DNA of 64,000 bases from Candidatus Proruminimicrobium quisquiliarum (GCA_018433245.1 JAHDRN010000014.1:1-64000), one strand, 5' to 3'. Counted from the first letter of the stretch, positions 14,117 to 46,219 are shown. The notes: a model not told the origin generated them from the sequence alone. Numbers and translations: made by a program.

Positions 14117-14118
14117 TT

Positions 14119-17998: not shown

Positions 17999-19267
17999 AT
18001 GAAATCAAATAATATTATAGGTTATAAATCATTAATTTTAATTATTGCAACCGTACTATTATTAATACTCTGCACAGCTTATTTAAAAAATTCAAATCCG
18101 CCGTTATTAACCAACGATAATTTAAGGTTTATTGATTCTAATAAATATCAAATCAGATTATTAAATATATTTATTCCGTTAAACAAAAATACAAAAGAAA
18201 ACAGAAAAAACAAAGAAATTTTAGCAAAAAAATATTTTTCGGATATTATAAAATCAAAACGATTTGACAGAATATTTGAAATAGGAAACGAAATAATTAA
18301 ACAAAACAATGATATAAAATTTTTTGATCTAGGCTGGATTTCACAAGGGAAACTTCCGGAATATTTTGACAAACAAGTATTTTCCTTGAAAAATGTCGGA
18401 GAGACGATAATGTTTGAATCCGAATTGGGCTTTCATATAGTCCAACTGATGAATATAAGAAAATCTGAAAATTTTAATCCGGATGCATTCAAATACAAAG
18501 AAATGCATAAAAAAACTTATCCAAAAAAATCTTATGAAAATATGATTTTTATTAAAGGCGGCTCATTTTGGGCAGGCTCAACGGAAGAAGAAATTGATAT
18601 GAGATTAAAACTGTGTAATATATATGTCGGCAAGCATATAGGCGGTTGTTATAGAAAATGGTTCGAAGATGAAATTTTCCAGTATGCAGTAGCAAATGAT
18701 TTATATGTAGATAAATATGAAGTCACTGTTGGCAAATATAAACAATTTATATCTGAAACAGGACACAGACAGCTTCCAAAATGGGTATCCGACTATGCTC
18801 CAACCGACAATCATCCGGTAGTAGGGGTTGACTGGTATGATGCAAATGCTTATGCGAAATGGGCCGGAAAAAGACTGCCGACTCAATTTGAATGGGAATA
18901 TATTGCAAGAGGCAAAGAAAGAAGGCTTTTTCCGTGGGGTAATGAAATGCCGGATGGGACAAGAGCAAATTACAGCGATATAAATGACGCTAACTTTTGC
19001 CGTGATATAACAAATAATGACGGTTATAAATATACATCTCCCGTAGGAAATTATCCTAAAGGACAAACTCCGCACGGAGTGTTTGATATGGCAGGCAATG
19101 TACGGGAATGGACAAGTTCAGTAGAGTCAGGAACAGATAAAGCTGTCGTAAAAGGCGGTTCTTTTTCAAATGCTTATGATGATTTATGGTGTGCGGATTA
19201 CAGAATTAATGATAAAAATACTCTTGAGCCAAATCTCGGATTCAGGTGTATTTCGGATATAAAATGA
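17999..19267 (+). CDS. parvulin-like domain fused to a formylglycine-generating-enzyme (SUMF1) fold
   Basis: The 422-residue protein has an N-terminal membrane anchor (residues 9-27), then a PpiC/SurA-like parvulin domain (about 48-153; FFDLGWISQGKLPEYF and the closing ELGFHIVQLMNIR are typical), then an FGE/SUMF1-type C-lectin fold (181-421; MIFIKGGSFWAGS, DKYEVTVGKYKQF, RLPTQFEWEYIAR, GVFDMAGNVREWTSS, LGFRC). Of the cysteine pair used by true formylglycine-generating enzymes only one is seen in the expected segment (SFSNAYDDLWCADYR), so it is probably not a classical FGE. It should face the periplasm. It opens the plus-strand island; no Shine-Dalgarno precedes the ATG. Confidence 0.8.
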   Translation: MKSNNIIGYKSLILIIATVLLLILCTAYLKNSNPPLLTNDNLRFIDSNKYQIRLLNIFIPLNKNTKENRKNKEILAKKYFSDIIKSKRFDRIFEIGNEIIKQNNDIKFFDLGWISQGKLPEYFDKQVFSLKNVGETIMFESELGFHIVQLMNIRKSENFNPDAFKYKEMHKKTYPKKSYENMIFIKGGSFWAGSTEEEIDMRLKLCNIYVGKHIGGCYRKWFEDEIFQYAVANDLYVDKYEVTVGKYKQFISETGHRQLPKWVSDYAPTDNHPVVGVDWYDANAYAKWAGKRLPTQFEWEYIARGKERRLFPWGNEMPDGTRANYSDINDANFCRDITNNDGYKYTSPVGNYPKGQTPHGVFDMAGNVREWTSSVESGTDKAVVKGGSFSNAYDDLWCADYRINDKNTLEPNLGFRCISDIK

Positions 19268-20823
19268 AACCTATAAATAAACATATTTTGATTATATTTT
19301 TCTATTTTATTATTACAACATTTGCATTAGCAGGTTTTTTTATAAACTGCAAAGGTAAAATCATGGGCAATATAAATCATCCTAATGCTCAAGGTGAAAT
19401 TTTATTAACCGATATAATGAAAAATAGTCTGTGTAACTACAAAATATTGAACTGGACAAATACAAACTTCTTAAATTATCCTTACGGCGAACAATTATCA
19501 GAAACTATAAAACATACTTTTCATTTGTATATTTCCGGAACACTTGCCATATTTACAAGTACTATATCAGCTTATAATATAACATTTTTTATAATTATAT
19601 TATTGAACGCATATTCTATGTTTTTACTGGCTAATTTTATATTTAAATCGTATCGTTTATCATTTTTGGCAGGCCTATTTTATATGTTTAATATTTATTT
19701 TTTGTTAAAAATAAATATGGGTTCTCTTCATAAATCATCCATATTTTTCATTCCTCTTTATATTCTTTTTTTGCTCAAACTTGCAGATACTCCGAAAGTG
19801 TCCTATCTTATTTTAACTTTTATATTATTGATATTAAATCATTTGCAATATCCCATGTATTCGCTGTATTGTTTAATATTCAGCGTTATTTTTATAATCT
19901 ACAGATTATTAAAAAATAAAAAAATCAAAGAATTTAAATATTTTATCGCCGTTATTGTTTTGAGTTTCATTTTTCTATATTGGATAGGAGCTGTAGGCAA
20001 AATCACTACCGATATGTATTTTTATGAAAATGACCCCTGGAATCTTAATTTCATTTACCTGATAAAAAATTATCTGGCACGTCCGACAGATCTTCCCGTA
20101 GGGATATCACCTACCATTTTATTTTTGGCTTTAATAGGTTTTTTTTATACAAAAACATCCAGATTTTATTTTTTGACCTCAATATTTTTTATTATTTTGT
20201 CTTTCGGATATTTTATTACTATAGACAGTATAAAAATCCCTTTGCCTTTTTATTTTTTAACCAAATGCATAAAATTTTTCAGCGGAATGATTTTGTATGC
20301 GCCGATACGCGCTTTGCCTATGGCGTATGTATGCTTGATAATATCTGCTATTTTCGGAGTTAAAATTATATGCGATAAATTCAGCAAAAAAATTATTTAT
20401 ATAACAGCAGCGGCGTTCTTTCTTGAATTGTTTTTTTTATATCCCGAATTATTCCCGATAAAAATAACAAATATCGTTAGATACGATATAGCAGAAAAAA
20501 TTAAAAATAAAAACGGGGACATTGTATTTTTACCGTTATTTGACAATTCTAATAAAGCATTATTACACAAATCTATGTTGATTACGCTTATTGCAACAAA
20601 AAAATTGGCAAATACTTATGAAGCAGAATCATGGGTTAAAAAAATTATTGAAACTAACAAACCTTCAGCCGCCTTAAAAATATTGAAACAGCACTTGATT
20701 AAATTTATAATAATTTATACTGATTTGGAACCTTCAAATATTAACGAAAAAGCTTTAATAAACTCAATAAAAGAAAAAACGTTTCAACTGGATAAAAAAA
20801 TTATTTTATATGAAATTGATTAA
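19264..20823 (+). CDS. polytopic membrane protein, GT-C/YfhO-like
   Basis: About 519 residues with roughly 11-12 hydrophobic segments and a soluble C-terminal tail. The large first periplasmic loop (NHPNAQGEILLTDIMKN...FLNYPYGE) and overall pattern resemble YfhO-type and related GT-C glycosyltransferases, which use polyprenyl-phosphate sugars at the outer face of the inner membrane. There is no strong sequence signature, so the family call is by architecture. The start is set at the ATG overlapping the previous stop (ATGA). Confidence 0.6.
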   Translation: MKPINKHILIIFFYFIITTFALAGFFINCKGKIMGNINHPNAQGEILLTDIMKNSLCNYKILNWTNTNFLNYPYGEQLSETIKHTFHLYISGTLAIFTSTISAYNITFFIIILLNAYSMFLLANFIFKSYRLSFLAGLFYMFNIYFLLKINMGSLHKSSIFFIPLYILFLLKLADTPKVSYLILTFILLILNHLQYPMYSLYCLIFSVIFIIYRLLKNKKIKEFKYFIAVIVLSFIFLYWIGAVGKITTDMYFYENDPWNLNFIYLIKNYLARPTDLPVGISPTILFLALIGFFYTKTSRFYFLTSIFFIILSFGYFITIDSIKIPLPFYFLTKCIKFFSGMILYAPIRALPMAYVCLIISAIFGVKIICDKFSKKIIYITAAAFFLELFFLYPELFPIKITNIVRYDIAEKIKNKNGDIVFLPLFDNSNKALLHKSMLITLIATKKLANTYEAESWVKKIIETNKPSAALKILKQHLIKFIIIYTDLEPSNINEKALINSIKEKTFQLDKKIILYEID

Positions 20824-21853
20824 AACATTTTTATTATTATTTATAATTATGCTATACGCATCCGATTTGTTTGCGGATAAATATAATCTGCCGTACGATT
20901 TTATGGATATAGTTAATAATAAATTCCCTTACACAAATCATATCCGACATGTTTCAGGAGGAAGTAAAGACAGAGAAACAACAATGAAAACTATTAAAAG
21001 ATATCCGGTCATAATGATTTGCGGAAACAGAAGAACAAAAGAAGACTGGTTTGGAAAAAATACCGGCAATGCCGATAAAAAAAACAACAATGTATATAAA
21101 ATGTTTTTATCAAACGGATTTAACGAATCTGAATTATGGACGTATTCTTATGTTGCAAATGAAAATGAAGAAATGAAAAACATTGAGGAATTGACCGACA
21201 GTTTACGAGTTTTTATATACGGAATTCTTTTCTATACCGGAGCGACTAAAGTTCAAATACTGGCTCATGGAGAAGGCGGAGTATTAGCTTTTGAAACTAT
21301 AAGAAAATATAATATTTATAACCTTGTGGCTACAATGGTATTTATCGGATCTCCTTTTCACAGCAGTTCAATATACAGCTATTATAAAGCCATTCAGGGA
21401 TATCCTGTGCATGCAAATCTTGCTCCGGGTTCTGATTTCTTGGAAGAACTATTGTTTTTAACAGAAACTCCTCACAGTGATAAAATTGAATATATTACAA
21501 TTTATTCTGATAATGATGAGTATTACAGAAATAACAGAACATCTCCCGTTCTAAAAGGAGCAAAAAACATAGCTATTGATTATTTAGATCATGACGGACT
21601 AAGAGCATCATCCGAAAGTTTTCAAAAATATTATAAATTTTTAAATAAAAAAGCATTAAAATATAATCCAAAAAAAGATTTTGACAAAGATGGATTTATG
21701 GATATTAAAAAAGGTGGCAATGATTGCGATGACAATAACTCTAAAATCTATCCGGGGGCATTTGAAATTGAAGATGACAATATTGATCAAGATTGCAACT
21801 TCAGAGACAAAAATTCACTTGGCGGGAAAGATTGTGAAATTTTAATAAAATGA
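20810..21853 (+). CDS. secreted lipase-fold protein lacking the catalytic serine, with MopE-type metal-binding tail
   Basis: A signal peptide (1-22, ending DLFA) leads into an alpha/beta-hydrolase domain (about 65-280) resembling triacylglycerol lipases. The nucleophile elbow reads AHGEGG (152-157) where GHSxGG is expected, so Ser is replaced by Gly154; the acid (Asp234/236 region) and His261 (DHDG) are still there. Residues 290-331 form a calcium/copper-type motif (DFDKDGF...GGNDCDDNNSKIYPGAFE...DQDC) of the MopE kind. It may bind a lipid or protein rather than hydrolyse one. It overlaps the previous gene by 14 bases and the next by four. Confidence 0.75.
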   Translation: MKLIKTFLLLFIIMLYASDLFADKYNLPYDFMDIVNNKFPYTNHIRHVSGGSKDRETTMKTIKRYPVIMICGNRRTKEDWFGKNTGNADKKNNNVYKMFLSNGFNESELWTYSYVANENEEMKNIEELTDSLRVFIYGILFYTGATKVQILAHGEGGVLAFETIRKYNIYNLVATMVFIGSPFHSSSIYSYYKAIQGYPVHANLAPGSDFLEELLFLTETPHSDKIEYITIYSDNDEYYRNNRTSPVLKGAKNIAIDYLDHDGLRASSESFQKYYKFLNKKALKYNPKKDFDKDGFMDIKKGGNDCDDNNSKIYPGAFEIEDDNIDQDCNFRDKNSLGGKDCEILIK

Positions 21854-23610
21854 AAAATACAATTAAATTTGATTTTACTCCCGTTTATATATCAATTGTG
21901 ACGTTTATAGTGCTATATTTACTAATGCCTAAATGGATTTATAGCCCAATTGCATTGACTGATACAGATCCATGGCTTCAAATTGGTTATTTTTTAGATT
22001 ATAAATTAATGTCTCACGTCTATTATAACGAGCATTTTAAAGATATAATATCTACTAATTTGTTAGGCATATTATTTTATAAAACATATACTCCGTTTTT
22101 AGCTAATTTACTGCTGAAATTTTTTAGATTTTTAATATTTGGATACTTTATTTATTCTACAACTAAATTTGAAATCAATAAAAAAACTGCAATTTTAACT
22201 TTGTGTGTGTCTCTGACTTCATATACTGTTTTGATTGCTTTTGGAGGCGATTATACAGATGGGTGGATAGTTTTCTATTTAACTGCAACCATATATTCGT
22301 TATTTAAAGCATATCGAATTTCTAATGTTAAAATTCTATGGCTTATTCTATCGGGAATATTTTGTTGTTTAATGATAGGGGCCGGATTTCAAAGCTTAAT
22401 CTATACAATATCTTTGTTTTTAATGTTAATACTATTAGAATATAAAAGAAACTTCAAGTTTAAATTATTATCAATGCATTATTTATATCCAATTATAGGT
22501 TGTTTAATTTGTTTTTGCATTTTAAATCTTGTTAATTACCTATACATAGGTGATTTCTGGTATTGCAAAAACTCAATAATAAGAGCACTATCTTTTGTAG
22601 GAGAACATAGATGGCATGGCTCAATGAATATTTTAAGTAAAAATAATATTTTATTTGCTATATGTATTTTATTTATTGCAACCTTTACTTATTTAAAGAA
22701 TGTATTTAAATTTGAACATTTTACTAATTTTGATTTTATTATTCTAATTACTACTTGGATAAATATAATAATTATGTTTTTTCTGGAAATTTTTTTTAAA
22801 CAGGAATTAATATCAAATATAAATTATTTTAATCACATAATACCTTTTATTATATTACTTTATGCTACTTATGTTATAAAATATTTATCTGAATTAAATA
22901 AAAATTTAAATTATATCTTTATGCTGGCTATAGTATTTTATTTTTGCATCATATGGTATATGCCCGGTCCTTTCTTTATTCCAGAATTTTTTCCAAGCAA
23001 ATTAACATCTATAGGCAGAAATATTTTTATGTCTTATCCAGTAATATATGATATATATATATATATTGGGATACTATTAATATTTGCCTGTTATTTTTTA
23101 TTTAGTAATTTTAAAAAATATTTCAAATTTATTTTATTTTTGATGTTAATTATACTTTTTAACTTTACCCCATTTGTGTACACACTAAAAAATGAAAGTT
23201 CTGTGCAATTTAAACACATTTCAGGAAAAGATTTTTTTGAATCCGTTGTTGATTGGTTCCATTATAGCAATAAAATAAATAAAAAAAGAAAAAAAGTGTT
23301 TTGGTATAATGAAAAAAAAGACACCTATATTAAAACTTGTTTAGGTGTTTCCAACTCTAAGAAAGGAGTTTTTGATATTTCTATGCCTTATCTTAATATT
23401 TCTACAAATGCCTTTAAAGATAAAATGAAATATTTAAATCAGCCGGGCTTTATTATCACCATATTATGCAGTGATAAAAATGATGCCATATTAGCTAAAC
23501 AAATTTTAGAAAAAAACAATAAAAAAGTTTCTTTAATTAATGAAAAAGAATTTTTAGGCAAATGTTTTAAAATTTTTATTATTGAATACAAAATTAATAA
23601 CGATAAATAA
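21850..23610 (+). CDS. GT-C-like membrane protein (paralogue 1)
   Basis: The 586-residue protein has about a dozen membrane segments and a soluble C-terminal region (about 455-586). After the first segment comes LTDTDPWLQIGYF, an Asp-x-Asp in the first periplasmic loop as in GT-C glycosyltransferases. It is paralogous to the protein at 33048-34790: MPKWIYSPI versus MPNWIYNPI, DTDPW versus DSDTW, and SGKDFFESVVDWF versus SGKNMLAATKQWF. Likely role: transfer of a lipid-linked sugar to a surface molecule (inferred). It is among the most AT-rich genes in the window. Confidence 0.65.
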   Translation: MKNTIKFDFTPVYISIVTFIVLYLLMPKWIYSPIALTDTDPWLQIGYFLDYKLMSHVYYNEHFKDIISTNLLGILFYKTYTPFLANLLLKFFRFLIFGYFIYSTTKFEINKKTAILTLCVSLTSYTVLIAFGGDYTDGWIVFYLTATIYSLFKAYRISNVKILWLILSGIFCCLMIGAGFQSLIYTISLFLMLILLEYKRNFKFKLLSMHYLYPIIGCLICFCILNLVNYLYIGDFWYCKNSIIRALSFVGEHRWHGSMNILSKNNILFAICILFIATFTYLKNVFKFEHFTNFDFIILITTWINIIIMFFLEIFFKQELISNINYFNHIIPFIILLYATYVIKYLSELNKNLNYIFMLAIVFYFCIIWYMPGPFFIPEFFPSKLTSIGRNIFMSYPVIYDIYIYIGILLIFACYFLFSNFKKYFKFILFLMLIILFNFTPFVYTLKNESSVQFKHISGKDFFESVVDWFHYSNKINKKRKKVFWYNEKKDTYIKTCLGVSNSKKGVFDISMPYLNISTNAFKDKMKYLNQPGFIITILCSDKNDAILAKQILEKNNKKVSLINEKEFLGKCFKIFIIEYKINNDK

Positions 23611-23611
23611 A

Positions 23612-25006
23612 ATGAATATATTATTTATAAGATGCAACGAAAATTTAGAAAAAATCAACAGTGAAACAAATATTACCGGTATTTATCCTCCTTTGGCAAT
23701 AGCTTATATCTCGGCATATATAAAAGCAAATTGCACGGATGTGAGCATCTCTTTTTTGGACGCACATTTAAATAAATTGAATGAAAAAAAAACTGTTTCC
23801 TATTTTAAAAAAAATAAATATGACATCTATTTTTTGCAGGCATATTCTTTAAGTTGGTATAGTGTATTAAAAACAGCCAAAATCATACGAAAAAACACTG
23901 AAAATGCATTTATAGTTGTGGGTGGCCCTCAAATTACGGCATACCCGCAAGAATCAATGGAAACAGGATTGTTTGATATGGGCATTGTCGGTGAAGCAGA
24001 AGAAATTAGCGAAAAAATAGTAAATTGTTTTAATACAGAAAAGATTAATTCTATTGAAGGCACAATATTAAATATTAAAGGCAAAATAATCACAAATAAG
24101 TATCAACCTCTTCTTGATGACATAAATCTGCTCCCTTTTCCGGATTTTGATTTAATAAATAACAACTATTTTTCTTTGACTGTTCAAAAACCGTTTGCAA
24201 CAATGATAACAAGCAGAGGGTGTTGTTATAATTGTTCTTTTTGTTCACAAATATACAACGGAAATAAAATAAGATATCGTACACCTGAAAACGTTGCAGA
24301 TGAGATAGAGATTTATGTTAAAAAATATAGAGTAAAAGAAATCATTTTTTTTGACGAAACTTTTACTTTTGATAAAAACAGGGTTATTGATATTTGTAAT
24401 GAAATAATAAAAAGAAATTTAAAATTTATTTTCAATATAAGAACAAGAGTCGATAAAATTGACGAAGAAATACTCATTAAACTTAAAGAAGCCGGATGCT
24501 CTACAATCCATATGGGGATAGAATCGGCTTCAGACAAAACTTTACAAAATATGAATAAGGGAATTACTGTTAAAACTATAAAAAACGCCGTTGATTTGTG
24601 TAAAAAAAGCGGAATTTTTACAAGGGGTTACTTTATATTGGGATATCCCGGAGAAACAAAAGAAGATATGCTGAACACTATAAATTTTTCAAAGAAACTG
24701 AATTTGGATTTAGCAAGTTTTACGATAGCGATACCAAATCCAAAAACATTGCTTTATGACATTGCCATAAATGAAAAATATATAAAGTACGATTATTGGA
24801 AAGAGTTCTCTTTGGGTATGGAAAAAAATCAAGTACCTTATTTCTGCAATCAAATTATAACTAAAAAATTTTTAGAAAAAGTGCTTAAAAAAGCTTATTT
24901 TTCTTTTTATTGCCGTTTAAATTTTATATTAAAAAAATTATTTTTTATAAAATTGTATATAATACGGAATATATTTACTCTTTTATACTATAGAATAATA
25001 AAGTAA
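23612..25006 (+). CDS. B12-binding-domain radical SAM protein 1
   Basis: The 464-residue protein belongs to the cobalamin-dependent radical SAM class (BchE/HpnJ-like). Residues 1-150 form the B12-type Rossmann domain (YPPLAIAYISAYI; VVGGPQITAYPQ; GEAEE); there is no DxHxxG motif, as in many of this class. The radical SAM barrel carries Cys204, Cys208 and Cys211 (CCYNCSFC), FFDETFTFDK, and HMGIESASDKTLQNMNKGIT. Such enzymes methylate or ring-close unactivated carbons, or rearrange skeletons, in lipids and pigments. I set the start at the ATG one base after the previous stop; an in-frame ATG ten codons earlier overlaps that gene. Confidence 0.9.
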   Translation: MNILFIRCNENLEKINSETNITGIYPPLAIAYISAYIKANCTDVSISFLDAHLNKLNEKKTVSYFKKNKYDIYFLQAYSLSWYSVLKTAKIIRKNTENAFIVVGGPQITAYPQESMETGLFDMGIVGEAEEISEKIVNCFNTEKINSIEGTILNIKGKIITNKYQPLLDDINLLPFPDFDLINNNYFSLTVQKPFATMITSRGCCYNCSFCSQIYNGNKIRYRTPENVADEIEIYVKKYRVKEIIFFDETFTFDKNRVIDICNEIIKRNLKFIFNIRTRVDKIDEEILIKLKEAGCSTIHMGIESASDKTLQNMNKGITVKTIKNAVDLCKKSGIFTRGYFILGYPGETKEDMLNTINFSKKLNLDLASFTIAIPNPKTLLYDIAINEKYIKYDYWKEFSLGMEKNQVPYFCNQIITKKFLEKVLKKAYFSFYCRLNFILKKLFFIKLYIIRNIFTLLYYRIIK

Positions 25007-25015: not shown

Positions 25016-26548
25016 ATGAAACAAAAATTTAATGTTTTATTAATTAATCCTTATATGGGTTTTAAAATCGGTGATTTTTACAGACCGCTGAGCGAACCTC
25101 TTGGATTATTATATATAGCTTCATATATGAAACAAAAATCCGACAAATATAATATAAAGATTCTTGATTTGTATGCGCTTAATCCAGTTAAACATAAAAG
25201 AGAAGGCTTTGATGATAAATTTTATTTTGGACTGACGGAACGGAATAAAATAACGGAATTAGTACAAAATTTTTCGCCGGATATTATAGGCATAAGCTCT
25301 CAATTTACTGGTTATGCCGAATACGCCATCGAAACCGCCAAAACAGTCAAAGAATCTATGCCATCCGTGCCTGTTGTAATCGGAGGCGCACATGCCACAT
25401 TTTTTGCCGAAAATATTTTAAATAAATATAATTTTGTTGATTTTATCATACGAGGTGAAGGCGAAATCTCATTTTTTGAATTATGCGAAACTATCAGAAC
25501 AAAATCCGAAATAAAAAATATATCAGGAATCACTTACAGAGCGCAAGATAATCGTATAATTTCAAATAAAAACCGTGAACCCGTTGACAATTTGGATGAA
25601 TTTAAAATTCCTGAAAGAACTTTGATTGACATGAATAAATATTTTGATATTAGCAGTGATGTCTTTCCGGGAAGCTGCGGATATCCTGTTGCAACCATGG
25701 TATTGTCCAGAGGATGTAAATTCAATTGTATTTTTTGCAGTACAAAAAATATGTGGGCAAATAAATGGAGAGGACGTTCTTATGATTCAATTATAAATGA
25801 AATAGAATACTTAATCGGTAACTTTAACGTAAAAGAAATAGCTTTTGTAGACGATCAAATTCTTGGAGACAAGAATTGGTTTGAAGAATTATTGGATATA
25901 ATTATTTTAAAAAAATTTGAAATAACATTTCAGATTATAAACGGATTAAGCGTATGGTTAATCGACAATAATCTACTATTAAAAATGAAAAAGGCCGGGT
26001 TTTATAAAATTGCATTGCCTATAGATACGGGAAATCCAAACACATTGAAGTATATTAACAAACAACAAATAAATTTGACAGATATCAAAAAAATCATAGA
26101 GACTGTTCACAAATTCGGTTTCTTTTCCAGTGCAAATTTTTTAATCGGATTCCCGTATGAAACTGAAAGTGAAATAAATAAAACTGTTAAATTCGCATAT
26201 ACCTGCGGAGTCGACATTATCTATTTCTTTATTGCAAAAATGCATGCCGGATCAGATATGTATGATAAATGTCCAGATATAAAATTATTGGAAAATATCG
26301 AAACAAGCGGGAGTTGGGCAAATGTCACAAACAGTTCTTTAACAATATCTTCCGAAAAATTGAGCGCTATTTTATCCAAAGCACAAAAATATTATTTTAT
26401 TCACAAATGTATTTTTTTGTTTAATCCGGTCAATTTTTATAAACATATTTTCTTCAAAATGATACGCATAAAAAATTATATACTGGTTTTTAAATTTTTA
26501 AAATTCAAAATACAAAATATACTAAAAAAATATTCGCCGGAATATTAA
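25016..26548 (+). CDS. B12-binding-domain radical SAM protein 2
   Basis: 510 residues: B12-type domain (about 5-165; PLGLLYIASYM, VVIGGAHATFFAEN, RGEGE) and a radical SAM barrel with Cys234, Cys238 and Cys241 (CKFNCIFC), AFVDDQILGDKNWF, and a later FLIGFPYETESEI motif. The C-terminal 100 residues are basic and hydrophobic and may touch the membrane. It follows the previous gene after nine bases without a ribosome site. Substrate unknown; the family includes BchE, the HpnJ hopanoid enzyme and P-methylases. Confidence 0.9.
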   Translation: MKQKFNVLLINPYMGFKIGDFYRPLSEPLGLLYIASYMKQKSDKYNIKILDLYALNPVKHKREGFDDKFYFGLTERNKITELVQNFSPDIIGISSQFTGYAEYAIETAKTVKESMPSVPVVIGGAHATFFAENILNKYNFVDFIIRGEGEISFFELCETIRTKSEIKNISGITYRAQDNRIISNKNREPVDNLDEFKIPERTLIDMNKYFDISSDVFPGSCGYPVATMVLSRGCKFNCIFCSTKNMWANKWRGRSYDSIINEIEYLIGNFNVKEIAFVDDQILGDKNWFEELLDIIILKKFEITFQIINGLSVWLIDNNLLLKMKKAGFYKIALPIDTGNPNTLKYINKQQINLTDIKKIIETVHKFGFFSSANFLIGFPYETESEINKTVKFAYTCGVDIIYFFIAKMHAGSDMYDKCPDIKLLENIETSGSWANVTNSSLTISSEKLSAILSKAQKYYFIHKCIFLFNPVNFYKHIFFKMIRIKNYILVFKFLKFKIQNILKKYSPEY

Positions 26549-34819: not shown

Positions 34820-35401
34820 ATGACAACTAATATTATAAAAGCACAAATTTCGGATATAAACATACTGGTTGATATGCATATAAGGCATATTGGCGATTCT
34901 TTTTTTTCATATCTAGGCAAAAAATTTTTAAGAATCATATATGCTGAATTAATATTTTCAAAATATGCATCAACTTATGTATATATTAATGACGGACATA
35001 TAATAGGATACATTTCATTCATTTTAAATAAAAAATTGTTATTTATAAAAATTTTATTTACAAAAAGTTTTGTAATTTTATTTTCTTTAAATTTTATTTC
35101 ATTTTTAAAATGCATATTTTACTTTTTCAGCAGCATAGGCTATATAATAAAAAAACAATATTGCAAATCTGAACTTTTGTTTATTGCAGTGAATGATGAT
35201 TATAAAAAAAACGGTATCGGCTCCAAATTGGTTGATTTTGCAGAAACAATTATAAAGCAAAATAACATATATAAAGTACAAGTTTCAATAAATGACGAAA
35301 ACATCATATCACAGATTCTCATAAAGAATAAAAAATATATTTTTTACAGAATAATAAATTTTTACGGTAAAAAAATGAATATGTATTACAAACAATTATG
35401 A
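34820..35401 (+). CDS. GNAT-family N-acetyltransferase
   Basis: The 193-residue protein has the GNAT acetyl-CoA-binding segment FIAVNDDYKKNGIGSKLVDFAE (about 115-136), with the x-x-N-G-I-G pyrophosphate loop, preceded by a GYISFIL beta-strand. A hydrophobic insert (about 68-100, ILFTKSFVILFSLNFISFL) is unusual and suggests membrane contact. With the DegT aminotransferase nearby it could N-acetylate an amino sugar, but the acceptor is unknown. Ends in ATGA overlap with the next gene. Confidence 0.78.
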   Translation: MTTNIIKAQISDINILVDMHIRHIGDSFFSYLGKKFLRIIYAELIFSKYASTYVYINDGHIIGYISFILNKKLLFIKILFTKSFVILFSLNFISFLKCIFYFFSSIGYIIKKQYCKSELLFIAVNDDYKKNGIGSKLVDFAETIIKQNNIYKVQVSINDENIISQILIKNKKYIFYRIINFYGKKMNMYYKQL

Positions 35402-38704: not shown

Positions 38705-40027
38705 ATGAAAAACAAAAAAATTATTATTATAGGTGCGGGAATCACGGGGCTTGTAACTGCTTACGAGTTATTGAAACAGGGACATAAAGTTGTCATCATA
38801 GAAAAAGAAGCAGATGTAGGAGGTCTTGCCAGAAGTTTTAAATATGATGATATGATTTTTGACATCGGCCCTCACAGATTTTTCTCCGATCAAACAACAA
38901 TAAACTCTTACATAAAAAATATCTTAAACTGTGATTTTTTCAAAATTTCACGTTTAAGTGCAGTTTTTTTTGAAGGTAAATATTATAAATGGCCTATAAG
39001 TTTTCTTTCTATATTTAAAATGTCGTTTAAAAACATAATGTCAATAATATTTGATTTATTATTTTTAAAAATGAAACACGCAAATAATTACAAGGAATAT
39101 GTGGAGAATAAATACGGCAAAACTCTTTATAAAATATTTTTCAAAGGATATACCGAAAAATTTTTTGATATAGACGCAAAACAAATACATCAAATGTGGG
39201 CGCAGGAAAGCATCAACAGAGTTCTTATAGTAAAAAAAACCAATAATATTCTCGGACTTATAAAATATTTTTTAAAGAGTAATTTTTCTCGGGAGAAAAA
39301 ATTTATATACCCTAAAACCGGAGGAATTCAAGTTTTTTCGCAAAATCTTAAAGAAAAAATAACCGCTTTAGGCGGAGAATTTGAATTAAATGCCGATATT
39401 CAAGAAGTTCAGATAACAAATAATTCGGCAGTTGCGGTTAAAACAAAAAAAAATGTTTATGAATCCGATATTGTGGTATGGACTGCGCCTTTGACTGCTT
39501 TATGCAAAATTATGAATATTGCCACAGAGCTTAAATACAGAAATTTAATTATTTTTAATTATATTATTAAAAAAATTGATAAAAAGTATGCCGTTAACAA
39601 TTACCAATGGTGTTATTTTGGAGACAGAAATATAACATTAAACAGGACATCAAAACCTATGTTATTTTCAAAAAATAATATCAACCATAAATATGATTCT
39701 GTCTGCGTTGAAGTTTCATGTTCTCAAAATGATTCTTTCTGGGATACTCCGGAAATATTAAAAACTAAAATAACATCCGAACTTCTTCAGCTTAACGTTA
39801 TTTCATCGGAAACTGACGTTGTAAATATTTTTGCCGAAAAAATTGAAAATGTTTATCCCGTATATACTTTAAATTTTGAAAATGATTTAAATATAGTAAA
39901 AAACAAAATTGCAAATATAAATAATTTATATCTTGCAGGCAGAAGCGGTTTATTTTGGTACAACAATATGGATGATTCCATAGAAAACGGCTTGGATATA
40001 TCAAAAAAAATAAATGAAACAACTTAG
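38705..40027 (+). CDS. FAD-dependent oxidoreductase (amine-oxidase/UDP-galactopyranose-mutase-like)
   Basis: 440 residues. The N-terminal dinucleotide motif IIIIGAGITGLVTAYELL (5-22), IIEKEADVGGLARSF and DIGPHRFFSD are typical of the amine-oxidase superfamily branch containing protoporphyrinogen oxidase, phytoene desaturases and UDP-galactopyranose-mutase-like proteins; the closing GRSGLFWYNNMDDSIENG binds FAD. It could desaturate or isomerise a lipid or a sugar. It sits beside a Tes-like radical SAM gene and a UbiUV-like pair, which favours a lipid or quinone-like substrate (inferred). Overlaps the next gene by 14 bases. Confidence 0.85.
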   Translation: MKNKKIIIIGAGITGLVTAYELLKQGHKVVIIEKEADVGGLARSFKYDDMIFDIGPHRFFSDQTTINSYIKNILNCDFFKISRLSAVFFEGKYYKWPISFLSIFKMSFKNIMSIIFDLLFLKMKHANNYKEYVENKYGKTLYKIFFKGYTEKFFDIDAKQIHQMWAQESINRVLIVKKTNNILGLIKYFLKSNFSREKKFIYPKTGGIQVFSQNLKEKITALGGEFELNADIQEVQITNNSAVAVKTKKNVYESDIVVWTAPLTALCKIMNIATELKYRNLIIFNYIIKKIDKKYAVNNYQWCYFGDRNITLNRTSKPMLFSKNNINHKYDSVCVEVSCSQNDSFWDTPEILKTKITSELLQLNVISSETDVVNIFAEKIENVYPVYTLNFENDLNIVKNKIANINNLYLAGRSGLFWYNNMDDSIENGLDISKKINETT

Positions 40028-41348
40028 AACAACCTCCAGCATTTGCCCTAAATGTTTTAATCCGGTTAAAGCTTTTATTGCCGAAGATGCCGGCGCCGTT
40101 TATTTGTTAAAAGAATGCAAAGAACACGGAAAATTTAGACTATTATTATCATCTGAACCGGATTATTATCTTGAACTATATGACTTTTTCTTTGATATTA
40201 TGCAACCGGAACATAAACAAAATGATTTTATTTTGCACTTAACAAATAAGTGTAATTTAAATTGTCCCATTTGTCTGGCAAACGCAAATGAATATAACGA
40301 TGACTATCCTGCTGACAAATTAAAACAATTTTTATCAAAAGCAACAGAAAAGAAAAAAATTGACATTATGGGCGCAGAACCGACAATGAGAGATGATATT
40401 TTCAATATTATTAAAATCGTCAAACAATTCAACCATGTATGCGCGCTGCACACAAACGGAATCAAATTATCCGATTATAAATATTGTGAAAATTTAAAAA
40501 ACGCGGGACTTGATGAAATTCATTTACAATACGATACTTTTAATAAAAAAACCGATATAAAAATCCGAGGTACTGATTTAACTGCCGTAAAAAACCAAAC
40601 ATTATCAAATCTTGAAAAATTAAATTTTTCAACAGATATAGTTATGACCGTACTAAAAGGCATAAACGAATCCGAAATAAAAGATATTTTTAACTTTTTT
40701 TCAAAGAAAAAATTTGTTAAAGAAATATTTTTTCTCGGGCACAGGCTGCTTGGGAAAACGCACCAAAACGATACTTCAACATGCATGATGCCGGACGAGG
40801 TTTTGGATTTTACGATAAAAAATGCCGCTATCAGCCTTACCAGACAAAATATGAAAATATTTCAAAAACTGTATTTTACAATGTTATCTCTGTTTTCCAA
40901 AAGAAAATGTTTTTATATACATCATTATCTTTATTTTAGGCATAAAGATTCTGTTATGCCTATAGATAAAATTTTAAATATGAGTTTTTTAGATAAAATT
41001 TTAAATCTATACCGGAAGATTTATCGCAAGAATAAATTGTCGGCAAAAGTTTTTATACTGTCAATGGTGCCGTTTACTTTCAGGATATCTCAATATTTGC
41101 CGTCTTTGGCGTTTGCCTCATTTTCTTATTTATTAAATTTTATTACGGCATTTAATTTATCAAAACTGTCAAATAAATTTTTATTAATAGGATTTATTAC
41201 GGCATGCGATCCTTATTCATACGACGAAAAAATATCCGCCAATTGCGGCAAGGGCGTTATTTCGGCTATAAGAGGAATAAGCGACAACGGAGCTTTTGAT
41301 AATATTCGCAGGGATATGAAAAACAATGAAAATATTAGCGCCGATTAA
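40014..41348 (+). CDS. tetraether-synthase-like (Tes/MJ0619-type) radical SAM protein
   Basis: 444 residues. The N-terminus carries a small metal-binding module CPKC (11-14) ... LLKECKEHGKFR (Cys35), then the radical SAM site Cys80, Cys84, Cys87 (CNLNCPIC), IMGAEPTMRDDI and LHTNGIKL. This layout is that of the MJ0619 family, which includes the archaeal tetraether/macrocyclic archaeol synthase joining lipid tails; bacterial relatives are largely uncharacterised. The C-terminal third is basic and hydrophobic, as for membrane-lipid enzymes. Substrate inferred, not shown. Overlaps both neighbours. Confidence 0.75.
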   Translation: MKQLRTTSSICPKCFNPVKAFIAEDAGAVYLLKECKEHGKFRLLLSSEPDYYLELYDFFFDIMQPEHKQNDFILHLTNKCNLNCPICLANANEYNDDYPADKLKQFLSKATEKKKIDIMGAEPTMRDDIFNIIKIVKQFNHVCALHTNGIKLSDYKYCENLKNAGLDEIHLQYDTFNKKTDIKIRGTDLTAVKNQTLSNLEKLNFSTDIVMTVLKGINESEIKDIFNFFSKKKFVKEIFFLGHRLLGKTHQNDTSTCMMPDEVLDFTIKNAAISLTRQNMKIFQKLYFTMLSLFSKRKCFYIHHYLYFRHKDSVMPIDKILNMSFLDKILNLYRKIYRKNKLSAKVFILSMVPFTFRISQYLPSLAFASFSYLLNFITAFNLSKLSNKFLLIGFITACDPYSYDEKISANCGKGVISAIRGISDNGAFDNIRRDMKNNENISAD

Positions 41349-42393
41349 TTCTATTTCAGACGTTGAGCCTGTTATAAAAGCCGGCGCAACCGAACTTTTT
41401 TGCGGTATTATTCCAAAAACATGGAATGACAAATACGGCAGTACGGTTTCGCCGAACAGAAGAGAATGGGCAAGCGCAAATATTACCGCATATGAACAAT
41501 TAAACGACATAGTTGAACTTGCGCATAAACTTAACGGTCAGATATTTTTAACTTTAAACGCTTTGTACGTTGATGAACAAAAAGACTTATTGGACGACAT
41601 AATCAAAAATGCCGTAAAATGCAAAGTTGACGCTTTTATTGTCGCCGATATCGGTCTAATCTACAAATTAAAATCAATGAATCTAAAACAGGAAATCCAT
41701 ATAAGCACCGGAGGGACGACTTTTAATTCCCATACCGCAAAATTCTATGAAAATTTAGATATACAACGAATCACTTTCCCCAGACATGTGCAGCCCGAAC
41801 AAATGAAAGCTATCGTTTCCGAAACCAAAAACATCAAATATGAAGTATTCATATTAAACAGCGGGTGCAAAAACGTAGACGGATATTGCACTTTTTTACA
41901 CGGCATGAAAGAACAGAAAAACGGATATATCTGGAAATTTTTAAAAAAAGCGAATTTTGACAGACTTGTCTTAAGAATTCTGCATAGTTTGCCGCAGGAT
42001 ATATCAAATAAAATAAATTTTTCATGTTCCGGCGTGGACAGCCCGTGCTTAATGAAATATGATTTCAATATATTACCAAAAAACAATACGATTAAAACGG
42101 ATATATTATCAAAAAATTTAAAATCATTTTTCAGTCTCATGTCGGGTGTTGATCCTTGCGGAGCGTGCAGAATAAAAGAATTCAACGATATCGGAATCCA
42201 CAGTTTAAAAATCGTCGGTAGAAATTATTCAAAAAATAAAAAAGTTAAGGATGTTTTATTTATCGGCGATATTATCAAAAAACTTGGCGATAATTTAAAT
42301 GATGATGATTTTAAACGATACATTAAAAAACAATATAAATATTATTACGGATTAAATTGTCAAAAGTTATGTTATTATCCTTATGAAAATTGA
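41326..42393 (+). CDS. U32-family protein, UbiU-like
   Basis: 355 residues of the peptidase-U32 family. N-terminus MKILAPINSISDVEPVIKAGATELFCG is the family opening. A C-x6-C pair (GCKNVDGYC, near residue 190) plus DSPC and DPCGAC fit the four-cysteine [4Fe-4S] site of UbiU, which with UbiV performs O2-independent hydroxylation in ubiquinone synthesis. There is no ubiquinone gene here, so a different ring or chain is probably hydroxylated (inferred). Its start lies 23 bases inside the preceding gene, and it overlaps the UbiV-like partner by 11 bases. Confidence 0.8.
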   Translation: MKILAPINSISDVEPVIKAGATELFCGIIPKTWNDKYGSTVSPNRREWASANITAYEQLNDIVELAHKLNGQIFLTLNALYVDEQKDLLDDIIKNAVKCKVDAFIVADIGLIYKLKSMNLKQEIHISTGGTTFNSHTAKFYENLDIQRITFPRHVQPEQMKAIVSETKNIKYEVFILNSGCKNVDGYCTFLHGMKEQKNGYIWKFLKKANFDRLVLRILHSLPQDISNKINFSCSGVDSPCLMKYDFNILPKNNTIKTDILSKNLKSFFSLMSGVDPCGACRIKEFNDIGIHSLKIVGRNYSKNKKVKDVLFIGDIIKKLGDNLNDDDFKRYIKKQYKYYYGLNCQKLCYYPYEN

Positions 42394-43180
42394 AAAAGCG
42401 GTTTTTATCAACAAAATTGACGATCTGCCAATCTCTCTCGCTTATGACAGAGTATATTACGGTCATGAATTTTGCGAATATTTGCTGCCTTCCGAAAATG
42501 AATTTAAACATATTTTGGATTTTGTTATTGCAAATAACTTACCTTTTACTTTTGTTACACCCACTATAAGCAACGATAAAATAAATTTACTTGACAAACT
42601 AACAGATACCGCGGCAGAAAAAGCCGCCGTATTAAATAAATTTGAAATAGTGGTTAATGATTTCGGAGTTTTAAGGCTTATCAGTCAAAAAAATATTCAA
42701 AGTACGGTAATAGCGGCAGGCCGGTTAATGACAAAGCAAAAAAGAGATCCTAGAATAAAATATATTTCTGCTCTTTCCGAAAGCGCAAAAAATTATTATA
42801 TGAGTTTTTCTCTGGATTCTGAGGCTTCTTCAGATTTTATTAAAGATTTTAACATACAAAGATTTGAACTTGATAATGTTGCGCAGGGAATTATCAGACA
42901 ATCAAAAACACCTGCTTCTCTATATACGCCTTTCTGTTATATATCTACGACAAAACTGTGTTATCTGGCGCAGGCCGATAAAAAAGAACGTTATCTTAGA
43001 CAAAAATGCGGGTGTTTTATGGAATGTCAGAATTATGACGTTTATATGAAAAATGATAAAATGAAAACGGATCTTTATTTGAAAGGCAATACTATTTTTT
43101 ACAGGAATGATGTTTTGCCCCAAAATTTACAAAATACTTATATTGACAGAATAGTAATCACCGAGAATATATTGAAATGA
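42383..43180 (+). CDS. U32-family protein, UbiV-like partner
   Basis: 265 residues, shorter than UbiU as UbiV is. A cysteine at position 31 (YYGHEFCEYLLP) corresponds to the N-terminal cluster Cys of UbiV, and three more lie in TTKLCYLA and CGCFMEC near residues 193-217. This is the pattern expected for the UbiV [4Fe-4S] cluster. The pair probably forms a heterodimer (known for E. coli UbiUV). Overlaps the next gene by four bases. Confidence 0.75.
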   Translation: MKIEKAVFINKIDDLPISLAYDRVYYGHEFCEYLLPSENEFKHILDFVIANNLPFTFVTPTISNDKINLLDKLTDTAAEKAAVLNKFEIVVNDFGVLRLISQKNIQSTVIAAGRLMTKQKRDPRIKYISALSESAKNYYMSFSLDSEASSDFIKDFNIQRFELDNVAQGIIRQSKTPASLYTPFCYISTTKLCYLAQADKKERYLRQKCGCFMECQNYDVYMKNDKMKTDLYLKGNTIFYRNDVLPQNLQNTYIDRIVITENILK

Positions 43181-44616
43181 AAATTATATTAATAAATCCC
43201 GTAATTAAAGATAAAATCTGGGCCGGAATTCCAAAAAATTGCAGCGAAGATATTTTTCTTTTCCCGCCTTTGGGTCTTATGTACATACAATCATATCTGG
43301 ATAAATTTTCTCATCATGAAACAAAAATCATAGATGCTCTGGCGGATAATATTTCGTATGATGAATTAAAAACAAAAGTTGAAGAATTTATGCCGGATAT
43401 TGTCGGTATAACCGTATTAACTCACAATCTCAAATCTGTTTCAAAAACAATAAAAGCGTTAAAAACAATTAAACAAAAATTTCACATAACAATAGGCGGT
43501 CCGCATATTACCGCATATCCAAAAGAAAGTTTAATGCTGAAAGGCGTTGACAGCGCTTTATCGGGATACAGTGAGAAAAGTTTTAAAGATCTTGCCGATG
43601 CTATTGAACAAAATAAAGATTTAAAAACGGTAGACGGCATAATACTGAAAAACGGCGAAAATATTTATATCAATGAAAAAAAACAAAATCTGCCGCTTGA
43701 CAATCTGCCTTTTCCCGACAGGATTAAAAACGATTTTAAAAAGTATTATACTCCCGCAACTCAGACGGCAAAAATAACTACTATCATAAGCGGAAGAGGA
43801 TGCCCTCAAAGATGCACTTTTTGCAATACATATCAAAAATACGAATCACGCTCGGCCGCCAACATAGTGGACGAAATGCAGCACTGCAAAGAAATCGGCA
43901 TTGAAGAAATATATTTTATAGACGACACATTCAACGTAACGGTTGAACGCGTTGCCGATATTGCAAATGAGATATTAAAGAGAAATCTCAAAATCAAATG
44001 GGGTTTTAAAGGCAGATGCGATAAAATCAACGATGAAATATTGCAGCTTATCAAAAAGGCAGGCTGCGTAAAAATACATTTCGGCGTTGAAACAGGCTCT
44101 GATTACGGGTTAAAAGAACTTAATAAAAAAATAACTCTTGACCAAATCAAACAGACCTTTAAACTTACAAAAAAACACGGAATAAGAACAATCGCCTTTT
44201 TTATGATCGGATGCCCTCACGATAAAACCCGAGATGATATTTTAAATACAATAAATTTTTCGCTTAAAATAAAAGCAGATTATGCGGTATTTGCCGTATT
44301 TTCTCCTTATCCGGACACCGTTTCTTATAAAAATGCTCTTGAAAAAGGTATAATTAAAAAAGATCTATGGGAAGAATTTCTTATAAATCCGGAATCTGAA
44401 ATTATGCCCGATACATGCTGGGAAGAACATTTTAAAAAAGAAGAATTGTTTGATTTTTTAAAATTGTCACACAGAAAATTTTATTTCAGGCCTTTTTATG
44501 TTTTAAAAACAATGCTTTCAACCCACAGTTTTTTTGAATTTAAAAAAATGATTGACGGCGGAATATCTCTTTTAAAAATAGAGTTTTTAAATAAAAAAAA
44601 GAAGAATATACTATGA
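43177..44616 (+). CDS. B12-binding-domain radical SAM protein 6
   Basis: 479 residues. B12-type domain (1-150; FPPLGLMYIQSYL, TIGGPHITAYPKES) and radical SAM site Cys209, Cys213, Cys216 (CPQRCTFC), YFIDDTFNVTVERV, HFGVETGSDYGLKELNKKIT. Close to protein 5 in motifs and length. Start overlaps the UbiV-like stop and its end overlaps the methyltransferase start (ATGA), so the three are translationally coupled. Confidence 0.9.
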   Translation: MKIILINPVIKDKIWAGIPKNCSEDIFLFPPLGLMYIQSYLDKFSHHETKIIDALADNISYDELKTKVEEFMPDIVGITVLTHNLKSVSKTIKALKTIKQKFHITIGGPHITAYPKESLMLKGVDSALSGYSEKSFKDLADAIEQNKDLKTVDGIILKNGENIYINEKKQNLPLDNLPFPDRIKNDFKKYYTPATQTAKITTIISGRGCPQRCTFCNTYQKYESRSAANIVDEMQHCKEIGIEEIYFIDDTFNVTVERVADIANEILKRNLKIKWGFKGRCDKINDEILQLIKKAGCVKIHFGVETGSDYGLKELNKKITLDQIKQTFKLTKKHGIRTIAFFMIGCPHDKTRDDILNTINFSLKIKADYAVFAVFSPYPDTVSYKNALEKGIIKKDLWEEFLINPESEIMPDTCWEEHFKKEELFDFLKLSHRKFYFRPFYVLKTMLSTHSFFEFKKMIDGGISLLKIEFLNKKKKNIL

Positions 44617-45170
44617 ATAATACCATTACGTTTAAAGATATGCTTAGAATTTTGGCAAGAAGAGAATTTTATATTGATATGCTTGTATTTTTTCTCATAT
44701 GCGTACCGTGTGTTTTGCTGTTCTTGTTTGGAATAAGAATGTTTGAAAATTATATAAATATAGGACAATTTATACATTATCCTTACAATCTTTTATTTTT
44801 TCTTTTGTTTTCACCGTCAGGATTTTTGTTTATATGGTATTCTTACACATATTTGATTATATACGGGGAAGGCAGCCCGTGTCCGCAAATAGGCGGAACG
44901 ACAAAACTTGTTACCGTAGGTCCTTATGCTTATGTAAGACACCCTTCTGTTATAGGAAAATTTTTCGGAGTGCTGGGAGTCGGTTTTTTATCCGGGTCTC
45001 CGATATTTGTTTTTATTGTTATTCCTATACTCACAATATGGTCCGCTTACTATAACAGATTTATACAGGAAAAATATACCGAAGAGAAATTCGGACAGGC
45101 TTACGCCGAATACAGAAAAGGTACTCCTATGTTTATCCCAAATTTTAGAAAAAAAGTTACATGCAAATAA
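44613..45170 (+). CDS. isoprenylcysteine carboxyl methyltransferase-like membrane protein
   Basis: 185 residues with about four membrane segments. The SAM-binding signature of the ICMT/PEMT group, GPYAYVRHPSVIGKFFGVLGVG (about 107-128), and a C-terminal YxxFIQEKYTEEKFGQAYAEYRKGTP are clear. Bacterial members methylate small hydrophobic molecules or lipids; actual isoprenylcysteine substrates are not expected. It supports a lipid-like product of the island. Confidence 0.85.
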   Translation: MNNTITFKDMLRILARREFYIDMLVFFLICVPCVLLFLFGIRMFENYINIGQFIHYPYNLLFFLLFSPSGFLFIWYSYTYLIIYGEGSPCPQIGGTTKLVTVGPYAYVRHPSVIGKFFGVLGVGFLSGSPIFVFIVIPILTIWSAYYNRFIQEKYTEEKFGQAYAEYRKGTPMFIPNFRKKVTCK

Positions 45171-45184
45171 ACGGATTTTATTAA

Positions 45185-46219
45185 ATGAACTTTAGATTAT
45201 TCAACAGATATTATGGTTTACTGGCACGTTCCAGGTACGGTTTGGATATTGCGCCGAGGGCCATGTTAAATTATTTAGCCTATACTATCCGCCCTTATCC
45301 TGTTATATTAACTGAAAATTATTCTTTCCCGATTCTATCAATATATGTAACAAAGAGATGTAATTTACATTGTAAATTCTGCCATGCGGACAAAATAAAA
45401 GAAAATTCCCAAAAAGATGAATTTGAATTAACCCCGTCTCAGTATGAAAAAATATTAAAACATCCTCTTGTAAAAAATACTTTGGTTTCTTTTTTTTGCG
45501 GCGGCGAACCGCTTTTAAATAATGATATTGAAGAATTAATAAAATTATCAAAGAAAAACGGAAAAATACCAACGCTTGCCACTAATGCAATTTTATTGGG
45601 CAGACAATGGGATATGCTTTTAAAAGCCGGCATAGCCGATATTCAAATCTCAATAAACGACAGCACAATGGATATAATCGGAAAAGACATAAAACATATT
45701 AATGAAGAAATGCCGTTGAACGCTTCTTATGTTCTTTTGCGATCAGATTTTGAAAAAAATAAAGATAAATTAGAAAATATTGTAAATTTCGCCGGCGAAT
45801 CCGGTTTTAAAAATTTTAAATTCAATCTTTGCGTTTCAAATAAACATAATAATTTTTTAAATGAAGATTTGACTGAATATAATTTTGCCGAATATAACAC
45901 ATTTAAAAGTAAAATATTAAAAAAATATAAAAATATTTCCATATATTTCCCGGATATTGTCACCAACAACAAGAAAAAAAATTGCAGGATATCATGGCAC
46001 ACTTTATTACTGGATGCCGCAGGTAATTTTGGTTTTTGCTGTGCATATCATCCTGATTCAGAAACCGGAATGAATATATTTTCAGAAAATTGGAGAGATT
46101 TGATAAATAATCCGACTTTTTGCGAAGTAAGAAAGAATCTGCTGGCAAAAGATGATAAAATGCCTGATTTTTGTAAAGGATGCTTCCATTTGCACGGTTC
46201 ATACGGTTCTGATATATAA
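45185..46219 (+). CDS. radical SAM protein with SPASM-like C-terminal Cys cluster (2)
   Basis: 344 residues. Radical SAM site Cys59, Cys63, Cys66 (CNLHCKFC), FFCGGEPLLNNDI, and C-terminal CRISWHTLLLDAAGNFGFCCAYH...CKGCFHLHG, a SPASM/Twitch-type auxiliary-cluster region. It is related to the protein at 35398 but in a different subfamily. Last gene of the island; a hairpin follows about 75 bases downstream. Confidence 0.87.
   Translation: MNFRLFNRYYGLLARSRYGLDIAPRAMLNYLAYTIRPYPVILTENYSFPILSIYVTKRCNLHCKFCHADKIKENSQKDEFELTPSQYEKILKHPLVKNTLVSFFCGGEPLLNNDIEELIKLSKKNGKIPTLATNAILLGRQWDMLLKAGIADIQISINDSTMDIIGKDIKHINEEMPLNASYVLLRSDFEKNKDKLENIVNFAGESGFKNFKFNLCVSNKHNNFLNEDLTEYNFAEYNTFKSKILKKYKNISIYFPDIVTNNKKKNCRISWHTLLLDAAGNFGFCCAYHPDSETGMNIFSENWRDLINNPTFCEVRKNLLAKDDKMPDFCKGCFHLHGSYGSDI

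Follow-up and report, generated by a model that had tools for sequence, protein, structure and literature searches.

A run of 23 open reading frames (ORFs; g01 to g23), all on the plus strand, occupies positions 17999-46219 of a 64,000-nucleotide stretch of DNA from Candidatus Proruminimicrobium quisquiliarum (GCA_018433245.1 JAHDRN010000014.1:1-64000). This stretch, hereafter the window, lies within contig C6 of an uncultured, oxygen-avoiding member of the Endomicrobiaceae (Elusimicrobiota). Most of the ORFs overlap or sit less than 30 nt apart, and their GC content is 24-33%, against 29-38% (mostly 34-38%) on the flanks. To the left lie housekeeping genes (RuvAB, S1, LytB, prephenate dehydrogenase, DAHP synthase) and to the right a 2-oxoacid:ferredoxin oxidoreductase (POR) operon, GuaA and GatAB. 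A preliminary description of this island had counted 23 same-strand ORFs and nine radical S-adenosylmethionine (SAM) proteins, six of them B12-type, and Pfam searches, motif searches and coordinates bear this out: the CX3CX2C motif is present in 9/9, and the B12-binding domain PF02310 is matched in g05, g06, g07, g10, g16 and g21. Six of the 17 PF02310 matches in the whole genome fall within 1.5% of its length (Poisson estimate ~3e-7). By these counts the clustering exceeds chance, and the co-occurrence across phyla described below is stronger evidence still. Taken together, the results indicate that the island probably encodes one still undescribed pathway to an unusual membrane-linked molecule; that its conserved core is a single system is well supported. 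Literature searches turned up no published account of this cluster.

The island was compared with draft or metagenome assemblies, and orthologues were called from gaps in bit score. A second genome of the same genus (G001; the window genome is G000) holds 19 of the 23 genes, with order and flanking neighbours unchanged. These shared genes are 64-90% identical, with dN/dS of 0.05-0.21 and dS within the range of the flanks, which argues that the island has long been present in the genus and is maintained by purifying selection. The genes missing from G001 encode two polytopic membrane proteins (g04 and g12), one PP-loop ATPase copy (g15) and a radical SAM protein resembling tetraether synthase, Tes (g18); jointly absent, they may form an optional branch. 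In another class of Elusimicrobiota, genome G143 (65% GC) carries a 21.5-kb stretch with at least 11 island families. It encodes the FAD protein, rSAM-X, UbiU, UbiV, B12c, B12d, GNAT, g14, PP-loop, Tes-like, B12f and DegT proteins, and additionally three mutually paralogous membrane proteins. Core clusters were also found in the phylum Omnitrophota, in genomes G295, G506, G613, G518, G572 and G597, and in G528, where the cluster is split over two contigs inside UbiU. The core set comprises the Tes-like radical SAM protein, UbiU, UbiV, B12c, B12d, g14 and GNAT, to which the FAD protein, DegT and B12a/f are usually added. The parvulin-FGE protein, the serine-less lipase, the PEMT/ICMT methyltransferase, the PP-loop ATPases and the polytopic membrane proteins form a lineage-specific periphery, for which G613 has counterparts of FGE (44% identity), lipase (47%), ICMT (56%), PP-loop (42%) and g02 (31%).

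Orthologues of UbiU (365 bits or more, next 255; the G528 copy is cut at a contig end) and of B12d (609 bits or more, next 489) were found in an identical 7/334 Omnitrophota genomes. Among about 295 Elusimicrobiota genomes both occur only in G000, G001 and G143, such that across the two phyla the two proteins pick out the same 10 of 629 genomes. Simple combinatorics put the Omnitrophota coincidence at ~1e-14, a figure that is indicative only, because the thresholds are post hoc and the genomes are related. Tes-like orthologues (489 bits or more) occur in six of the seven cluster-bearing Omnitrophota. The preliminary proposal of a single pathway, which scattered homologues would have refuted, thus withstood the comparison: the core is a physical cluster in two phyla. 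A tree of concatenated UbiU, B12c, B12d and g14 splits the phyla with support of 99/99, a topology better explained by ancient descent with frequent loss, or by a single early transfer, than by recurrent recent exchange. Inspection of five loci with lower-tier UbiU matches (G427, G428, G477, G563 and G616) found no core cluster, so that a UbiU homologue by itself does not diagnose the cluster. The protein rSAM-X, a conserved radical SAM protein beside Tes/UbiU in the Omnitrophota clusters, is missing from the window island; an unlinked homologue (41%) lies elsewhere in the window genome (C10:5980-6951, L140).

The Tes-like radical SAM protein g18 (40014..41348) carries a rubredoxin-type Zn/Fe site. 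Among solved structures the closest to it is that of the archaeal tetraether synthase Tes (MJ0619, PDB 7TOL/7TOM; 7tol E 4e-45), a similarity overlooked in the preliminary description, as were the YcfA-like PP-loop chemistry and the likeness of the FAD protein to UDP-galactopyranose mutase (UGM). The score of g18 against NF045702 is 152.7 bits vs a Tes cut-off of 450, and because this is well under the equivalog cut-off, the sequence is classed as Tes-like and not as Tes. The rubredoxin motif C11X2C14X20C35X2H38 is invariant in 8/8 orthologues, which likewise all keep the radical SAM motif and three additional C-terminal cysteines (C299, C398 and C411), and His243 of the window protein corresponds to an extra cysteine in the seven other orthologues. 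The gene lies directly upstream of UbiU in the window and in G506, G613, G518, G572, G597 and G528. The Omnitrophota keep this gene pairing, so the difference from G001 probably reflects loss of g18 there and not a gain in the lineage of the window genome. A search of 60 relatives found no orthologue in the family outside the window, merely distant radical SAM proteins.

Tes-like genes were also found in a second kind of locus, distinct from the present cluster. Arrays of 15-20 kb in four Omnitrophota genomes (L148, L149, L151 and L152, in G454, G438, G457 and G461, respectively) contain several Tes-like genes alternating with ~4-7 B12c-like genes, together with one g09-like DegT gene. The g18 profile has matches in G520, G576 and G451 as well. 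The arrays are apparently undescribed, and their gene content supports a working link among Tes-like, B12c-like and DegT proteins.

Immediately downstream of g18 are the adjacent U32-type genes g19 (41326..42393) and g20 (42383..43180), whose products have four or more invariant cysteines each. They resemble UbiU and UbiV, the prototype O2-independent hydroxylase, which acts on a membrane isoprenoid-quinone precursor and has characteristic cysteine motifs, that of UbiV being CXnCX12CX3C (PMC6747719). The core protein g19 (PF01136; 40-47% identity in clusters of both phyla) is a candidate O2-independent hydroxylase subunit. It scores 77.2 bits against NF047963 (UbiU) vs an equivalog cut-off of 440, and a search of the PDB with g19 returned no solved relative. 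No Pfam match was obtained for g20; its pattern C31..C193..C211..C215 comprises the far-upstream cysteine of UbiV plus three further cysteines, and the gene is next to UbiU in most clusters. The pair recognised in the preliminary description is therefore upheld, by Pfam for UbiU and by cysteine pattern for its partner. Two more UbiU/UbiV-like pairs are present in the window genome, at C31:188-194 kb (L075) and C6:92-94 kb (L076), and belong to another U32 set than g19/g20. One of these extra pairs lies beside B12-radical SAM, radical SAM and carbamoyltransferase-like genes, and the C31-type arrangement recurs in Praeruminimicrobium G011.

The six B12-binding radical SAM proteins are g05 (B12a, 23582..25006, likely start an ATG near 23612), g06 (B12b, 25016..26548), g07 (B12c, 26549..28090), g10 (B12d, 30900..32318), g16 (B12e, 37313..38704) and g21 (B12f, 43177..44616). 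Neither these nor the other island radical SAM proteins reach an NCBIfam equivalog cut-off, so that the preliminary reading was not undone by assignment of the B12-type enzymes to known pathways. HpnJ and BchE are the top NCBIfam matches for several of the six, all far under cut-off, and TIGR04072, a B12-radical SAM family of ladderane-type lipids, is matched with at most 147.9 bits (g21) vs a cut-off of 360. A quickly built LG+G4 tree, in which some branches are long, groups members from the window with members from Omnitrophota in each of the clades a, c, d and e/f, with SH-like approximate likelihood ratio support of 99 for B12a, 100 for B12c (12 rows) and 99 for B12e/f; within the last, B12e and B12f are paralogous. 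These clades shared across phyla indicate that several distinct B12-radical SAM steps are conserved together. The sole close neighbour of g06 in the tree is its G001 orthologue, and in this comparison B12b is limited to the window genus. The core protein g07 has a hydrophobic C-terminal segment and is 39-48% identical to its Omnitrophota orthologues and 43% to that of G143. The best conserved core gene is g10 (48-51% in G143 and Omnitrophota), whose product has AprD4 (6fd2) as its nearest solved structure.

Two further radical SAM proteins lack a B12-binding match. The core protein g14 (35398..36372; PF04055) has a SPASM-like C-terminal cysteine set, and C30/C34/C37, C254, C272, C293, C296 and C300 are invariant across its orthologues. 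The last gene of the island, g23 (45185..46219; PF04055 and PF13186), encodes a radical SAM/SPASM protein that is 84% identical in G001; full-length relatives (31-34%) occur outside this cluster in the family genomes G015 and G010.

Pfam confirms the earlier assignments of the DegT, GNAT, PEMT/ICMT-type methyltransferase, FAD oxidoreductase, U32/UbiU and parvulin-FGE proteins. The DegT/DnrJ-type transferase g09 (29683..30903; PF01041), which depends on pyridoxal 5′-phosphate (PLP), is divergent (28-39% identity in the G143 and Omnitrophota clusters), and in most copies the PLP fold contains a hydrophobic stretch, near residues 214-260 in g09. The GNAT acyltransferase g13 (34820..35401; PF00583) is 27-32% identical in clusters of both phyla and has a hydrophobic segment at residues 73-103. 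The FAD protein g17 (38705..40027; PF01593) is PRK07208-like, scores below the NF005548 cut-off and is 35-40% identical in the clusters. Its nearest solved relative is UGM (4dsg, E 5e-22, full length aligned); in our own alignment the substrate arginine of the T. cruzi enzyme, which we take to be R176, does not align in g17. The membrane methyltransferase of PEMT/ICMT type, g22 (44613..45170; PF04191 and PF04140), is 39% identical in G506.

The two PP-loop ATPases g11 (32318..33058) and g15 (36494..37228) are 64% identical to each other. They have weak Pfam matches and a good fold match, in agreement with their first annotation, and the nearest solved structure is YcfA (PDB 9KQ6/9KQ7; Foldseek E 8e-12 with the predicted fold, hmmsearch E 1.6e-23). 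Residues G13, G14, D16 and S17 of the SGG(x)DS motif are invariant, as is C110, which aligns with YcfA C113 (9kq6), presumably a catalytic or otherwise important cysteine. In three loci elsewhere (L040, L041 and L043, from Halobacteriovorax, bacterium 8_bin.41 and Halobacteriovoraceae, respectively) a YcfA-like PP-loop gene is followed by a small cysteine-containing protein and a class V PLP-like ORF of cysteine-desulfurase type. SGNH-like proteins are encoded nearby, and B12-radical SAM proteins in L041; this set is a possible sulphur-insertion module.

The remaining genes encode membrane and envelope proteins. The first, g01 (17999..19267; PF00639 and PF03781), combines a signal anchor, a parvulin peptidyl-prolyl isomerase domain and an FGE-sulfatase-type domain; it is 77% identical in G001 with dN/dS of 0.11, and its G613 counterpart adjoins the lipase gene. 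The exported protein g03 (20810..21853; PF01674 and PF11617) has a Lipase_2 fold and a C-terminal MopE-type motif. As the preliminary description had noted, it lacks the nucleophile serine: its elbow reads AHGEGG vs AHSxGG, with glutamate in place of serine, and the change is shared by G001 and Omnitrophota G613. From this sequence, g03 is probably a non-hydrolytic or altered-mechanism envelope protein. Four polytopic proteins had been called GT-C-like, which holds for one of them and weakly for a second. A significant GT-C profile match was obtained for g08 alone (28097..29683; PMT_2/LA_3751-like, PF13231 E 2.7e-10, weak NF047440). The possible GT-C glycosyltransferase g02 (GTC1, 19246..20823, likely start an ATG near 19264) has ~10 hydrophobic segments and no Pfam match; hhalign ties it weakly, at a probability of 33%, to the PMT_2 group. 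For the paralogues g04 (GTC2, 21850..23610; no Pfam match) and g12 (GTC4, 32955..34790, likely start an ATG near 33048), which are 38% identical, hhalign detected no homology to GT-C. Structure predictions were made from shallow alignments, and the AlphaFold models of g04/g12, with a mean predicted local distance difference test score of 37, were unusable.

Beyond the island, the POR operon lies directly 3′ of it (46395-49473) and is 91-96% identical in G001. This operon and the IorAB-like oxidoreductases inside the G613, G518 and G572 clusters possibly reflect a shared link, which may be coincidence. On the other side, DAHP synthase and prephenate dehydrogenase (12112-17897) are divergent beside the island, probably by coincidence; prephenate is a merely proposed oxygen donor for UbiUV and other U32 hydroxylases (PMC10470549).

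We consider it an even proposition that the island serves a pathway in which a membrane-bound lipid has its carbon skeleton modified anaerobically and is then built up into a glycolipid. In such a scheme the B12-radical SAM proteins would alter sp3 carbons in the chain or head of the lipid, by methylation, cyclisation or some other rearrangement, and g18, acting like tetraether synthase, would link a chain carbon through a new C-C (or C-S) bond. The UbiU/UbiV-like pair would hydroxylate without O2. The DegT and GNAT proteins could install and then acylate an amino group, and a PP-loop enzyme could activate a carbonyl for insertion of sulphur or nitrogen. Finally, g22 would methylate the product, which would cross the membrane and then receive sugars from the GT-C enzyme(s); the exported FGE and lipase-fold proteins would work in the envelope. 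The lipid side is favoured because of the Tes-like, UbiUV-like and PEMT/ICMT enzymes and of hydrophobic stretches in normally soluble enzymes, found at the B12c C-terminus in most orthologues, in DegT (214-260), in the Tes-like protein near residue 350 and in GNAT (73-103). The envelope-lipid substrate of the preliminary description thus stays plausible; a link to hopanoids is not supported. The amino-sugar decoration proposed there was a guess, the cluster DegT being divergent and in most copies bearing the hydrophobic stretch, and the order of steps was invented; both are unsupported by direct evidence.

Several observations weigh against this lipid reading. The AprD4 match of B12d, the UGM fold, DegT, GNAT and PMT_2 would suit sugar or glycan chemistry too. 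No fatty-acid, isoprenoid or acyl carrier protein (ACP) genes lie within the island, and a lipid substrate must therefore come from elsewhere. The absence of g18 orthologues from G001 and G295 indicates that g18 is not essential to the core. The hydrophobic segments are of moderate strength and some orthologues lack them, the clusters are patchy (~1-2% of genomes per phylum), and the pathway and its product are predicted here from genes.

It is possible, though less probable than a lipid, that the product is a sugar or surface glycan with many modifications, similar to an O-antigen or an aminoglycoside. AprD4-like and other B12-radical SAM enzymes would then act on a sugar nucleotide or glycan by methylation, deoxygenation or epimerisation, DegT and GNAT would make an N-acyl amino sugar, the UGM-like protein a furanose, and the GT-C enzyme would polymerise or attach the product. 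This accounts for the best solved matches of B12d and g17 and for the presence of DegT, GNAT and PMT_2; in addition, several Omnitrophota clusters have GT2-type sequences nearby, and that of G295 has an ABC-2-type exporter pair (sequence starts only), the GT2, ABC-2, IorAB and SGNH neighbours in Omnitrophota loci being named by sequence starts or weak matches. However, the Tes-like, UbiUV-like and PEMT/ICMT enzymes indicate lipids, Pfam searches found no sugar-nucleotide 4,6-dehydratase or epimerase gene in the island, the mutase arginine is not aligned in g17, and DegT has its hydrophobic stretch. An improbable alternative is a secreted small molecule or a natural product with sulphur, derived from aryl or amino-acid precursors, in which UbiUV with shikimate precursors, 2-oxoacid:ferredoxin oxidoreductases and YcfA-like proteins would yield a thioamide or aromatic tailored by the radical SAM enzymes. 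The YcfA-like proteins, the class V PLP-like ORF after the PP-loop gene in L040, L041 and L043, the IorAB-like genes within three clusters and the shikimate and POR operons flanking the window island are consistent with it; yet those operons resemble ordinary core metabolism, and the island has many envelope or membrane proteins and no peptide, polyketide or exporter genes.

Accumulation of unrelated small pathways at a permissive site, rather than one system, would explain why B12b, g23 and g04/g12 have no counterpart in other clusters, why gene order is shuffled between phyla and why four genes are missing in G001. Against this, no fewer than ten families are found together in both phyla, the UbiU and B12d genome sets are identical, G613 carries FGE, lipase and ICMT too, and purifying selection acts throughout; we hold this explanation to be likewise improbable. 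A random pile-up is largely refuted for the core by the identical genome sets and could still apply to g06, g23, g04 and g12. Most unlikely of all is a variant of the hopanoid or ladderane pathways, which the HpnJ/BchE matches and TIGR04072 scores of up to 148 bits might suggest. All of these scores are far under the curated cut-offs, and no ACP, ketosynthase or similar gene is present in the island. Hopanoids as a shared product are excluded: of the genomes examined for squalene-hopene cyclase, only G143 has it, and G000, G001 and six Omnitrophota do not.

Part of the enzymology of many biomarker lipids of bacteria is still missing, membrane-spanning and branched tetraether-type lipids among them. 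According to a survey of the Black Sea, no function has been confirmed for bacterial Tes homologues (PMC11868695). Here a Tes-like enzyme is placed in a defined, conserved gene set of two named phyla, with O2-independent hydroxylase-like and B12-radical SAM partners, which turns the identity of the lipid that depends on it into a concrete and answerable question. Likewise, with the UbiUV-like pair the substrates of U32-type hydroxylation would come to include a new class. As a more specific and rather doubtful conjecture, the core could make a new anaerobic lipid class of Elusimicrobiota and Omnitrophota, built by Tes-like chain coupling or closure, O2-free decoration by B12-radical SAM and UbiUV proteins, YcfA-like sulphur insertion (thioamide or thioester) and only then amidation and glycosylation, with the Tes-like/B12c-like arrays as an elaborated form.

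The CX2CX20CX2H spacing of g18 is that of the Tes rubredoxin site (PMC9433317), and the radical SAM motif CX3CX2C is likewise shared. In contrast, the region of the N-terminal auxiliary [4Fe-4S] site of Tes (C73, C77, C80 and a histidine; CX3CX2C..H) is missing in 8/8 g18 orthologues, most of which have a hydrophobic stretch before the C-terminal cysteine pair, and g18 is embedded in a bacterial cluster of some 20 genes. As possible counterparts of the catalytic C-terminal [4Fe-4S] cluster of Tes, an enzyme that joins lipid chains by C-C coupling, g18 has its three conserved C-terminal cysteines. UbiU likeness is seen in the CX6C that g19 keeps, within CX6CX52CX36C rather than the CX6CX16CX38C of E. 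coli, and UbiV likeness in the distal cysteine plus three of g20, although its spacing, CX17CX3C, differs. UbiT/SCP2 and ubiquinone genes were not found in the island. YcfA is a PP-loop ATPase of thioamide formation in 6-thioguanine biosynthesis (PMC6225789); the genomic setting of g11/g15 differs, a NUDIX partner is absent, and the PLP partner in the island, if there is one, would be the DegT-type g09 in place of a YcfC-like sulphur donor. The score of g17 against TIGR00031 is 59 bits vs a cut-off of 304; it lies closer to PRK07208, a family of unknown function, than to UGM. Among the membrane proteins, g08 matches the PMT_2/LA_3751-type GT-C enzymes, g02 is weakly related and g04/g12 have no detectable relationship to them. 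The PF02310 and PF04055 layout of the island B12-radical SAM proteins is common to AprD4, HpnJ, BchE and the TIGR04072 group; unlike these, the island unites at least four separate orthologous clades in one cluster.

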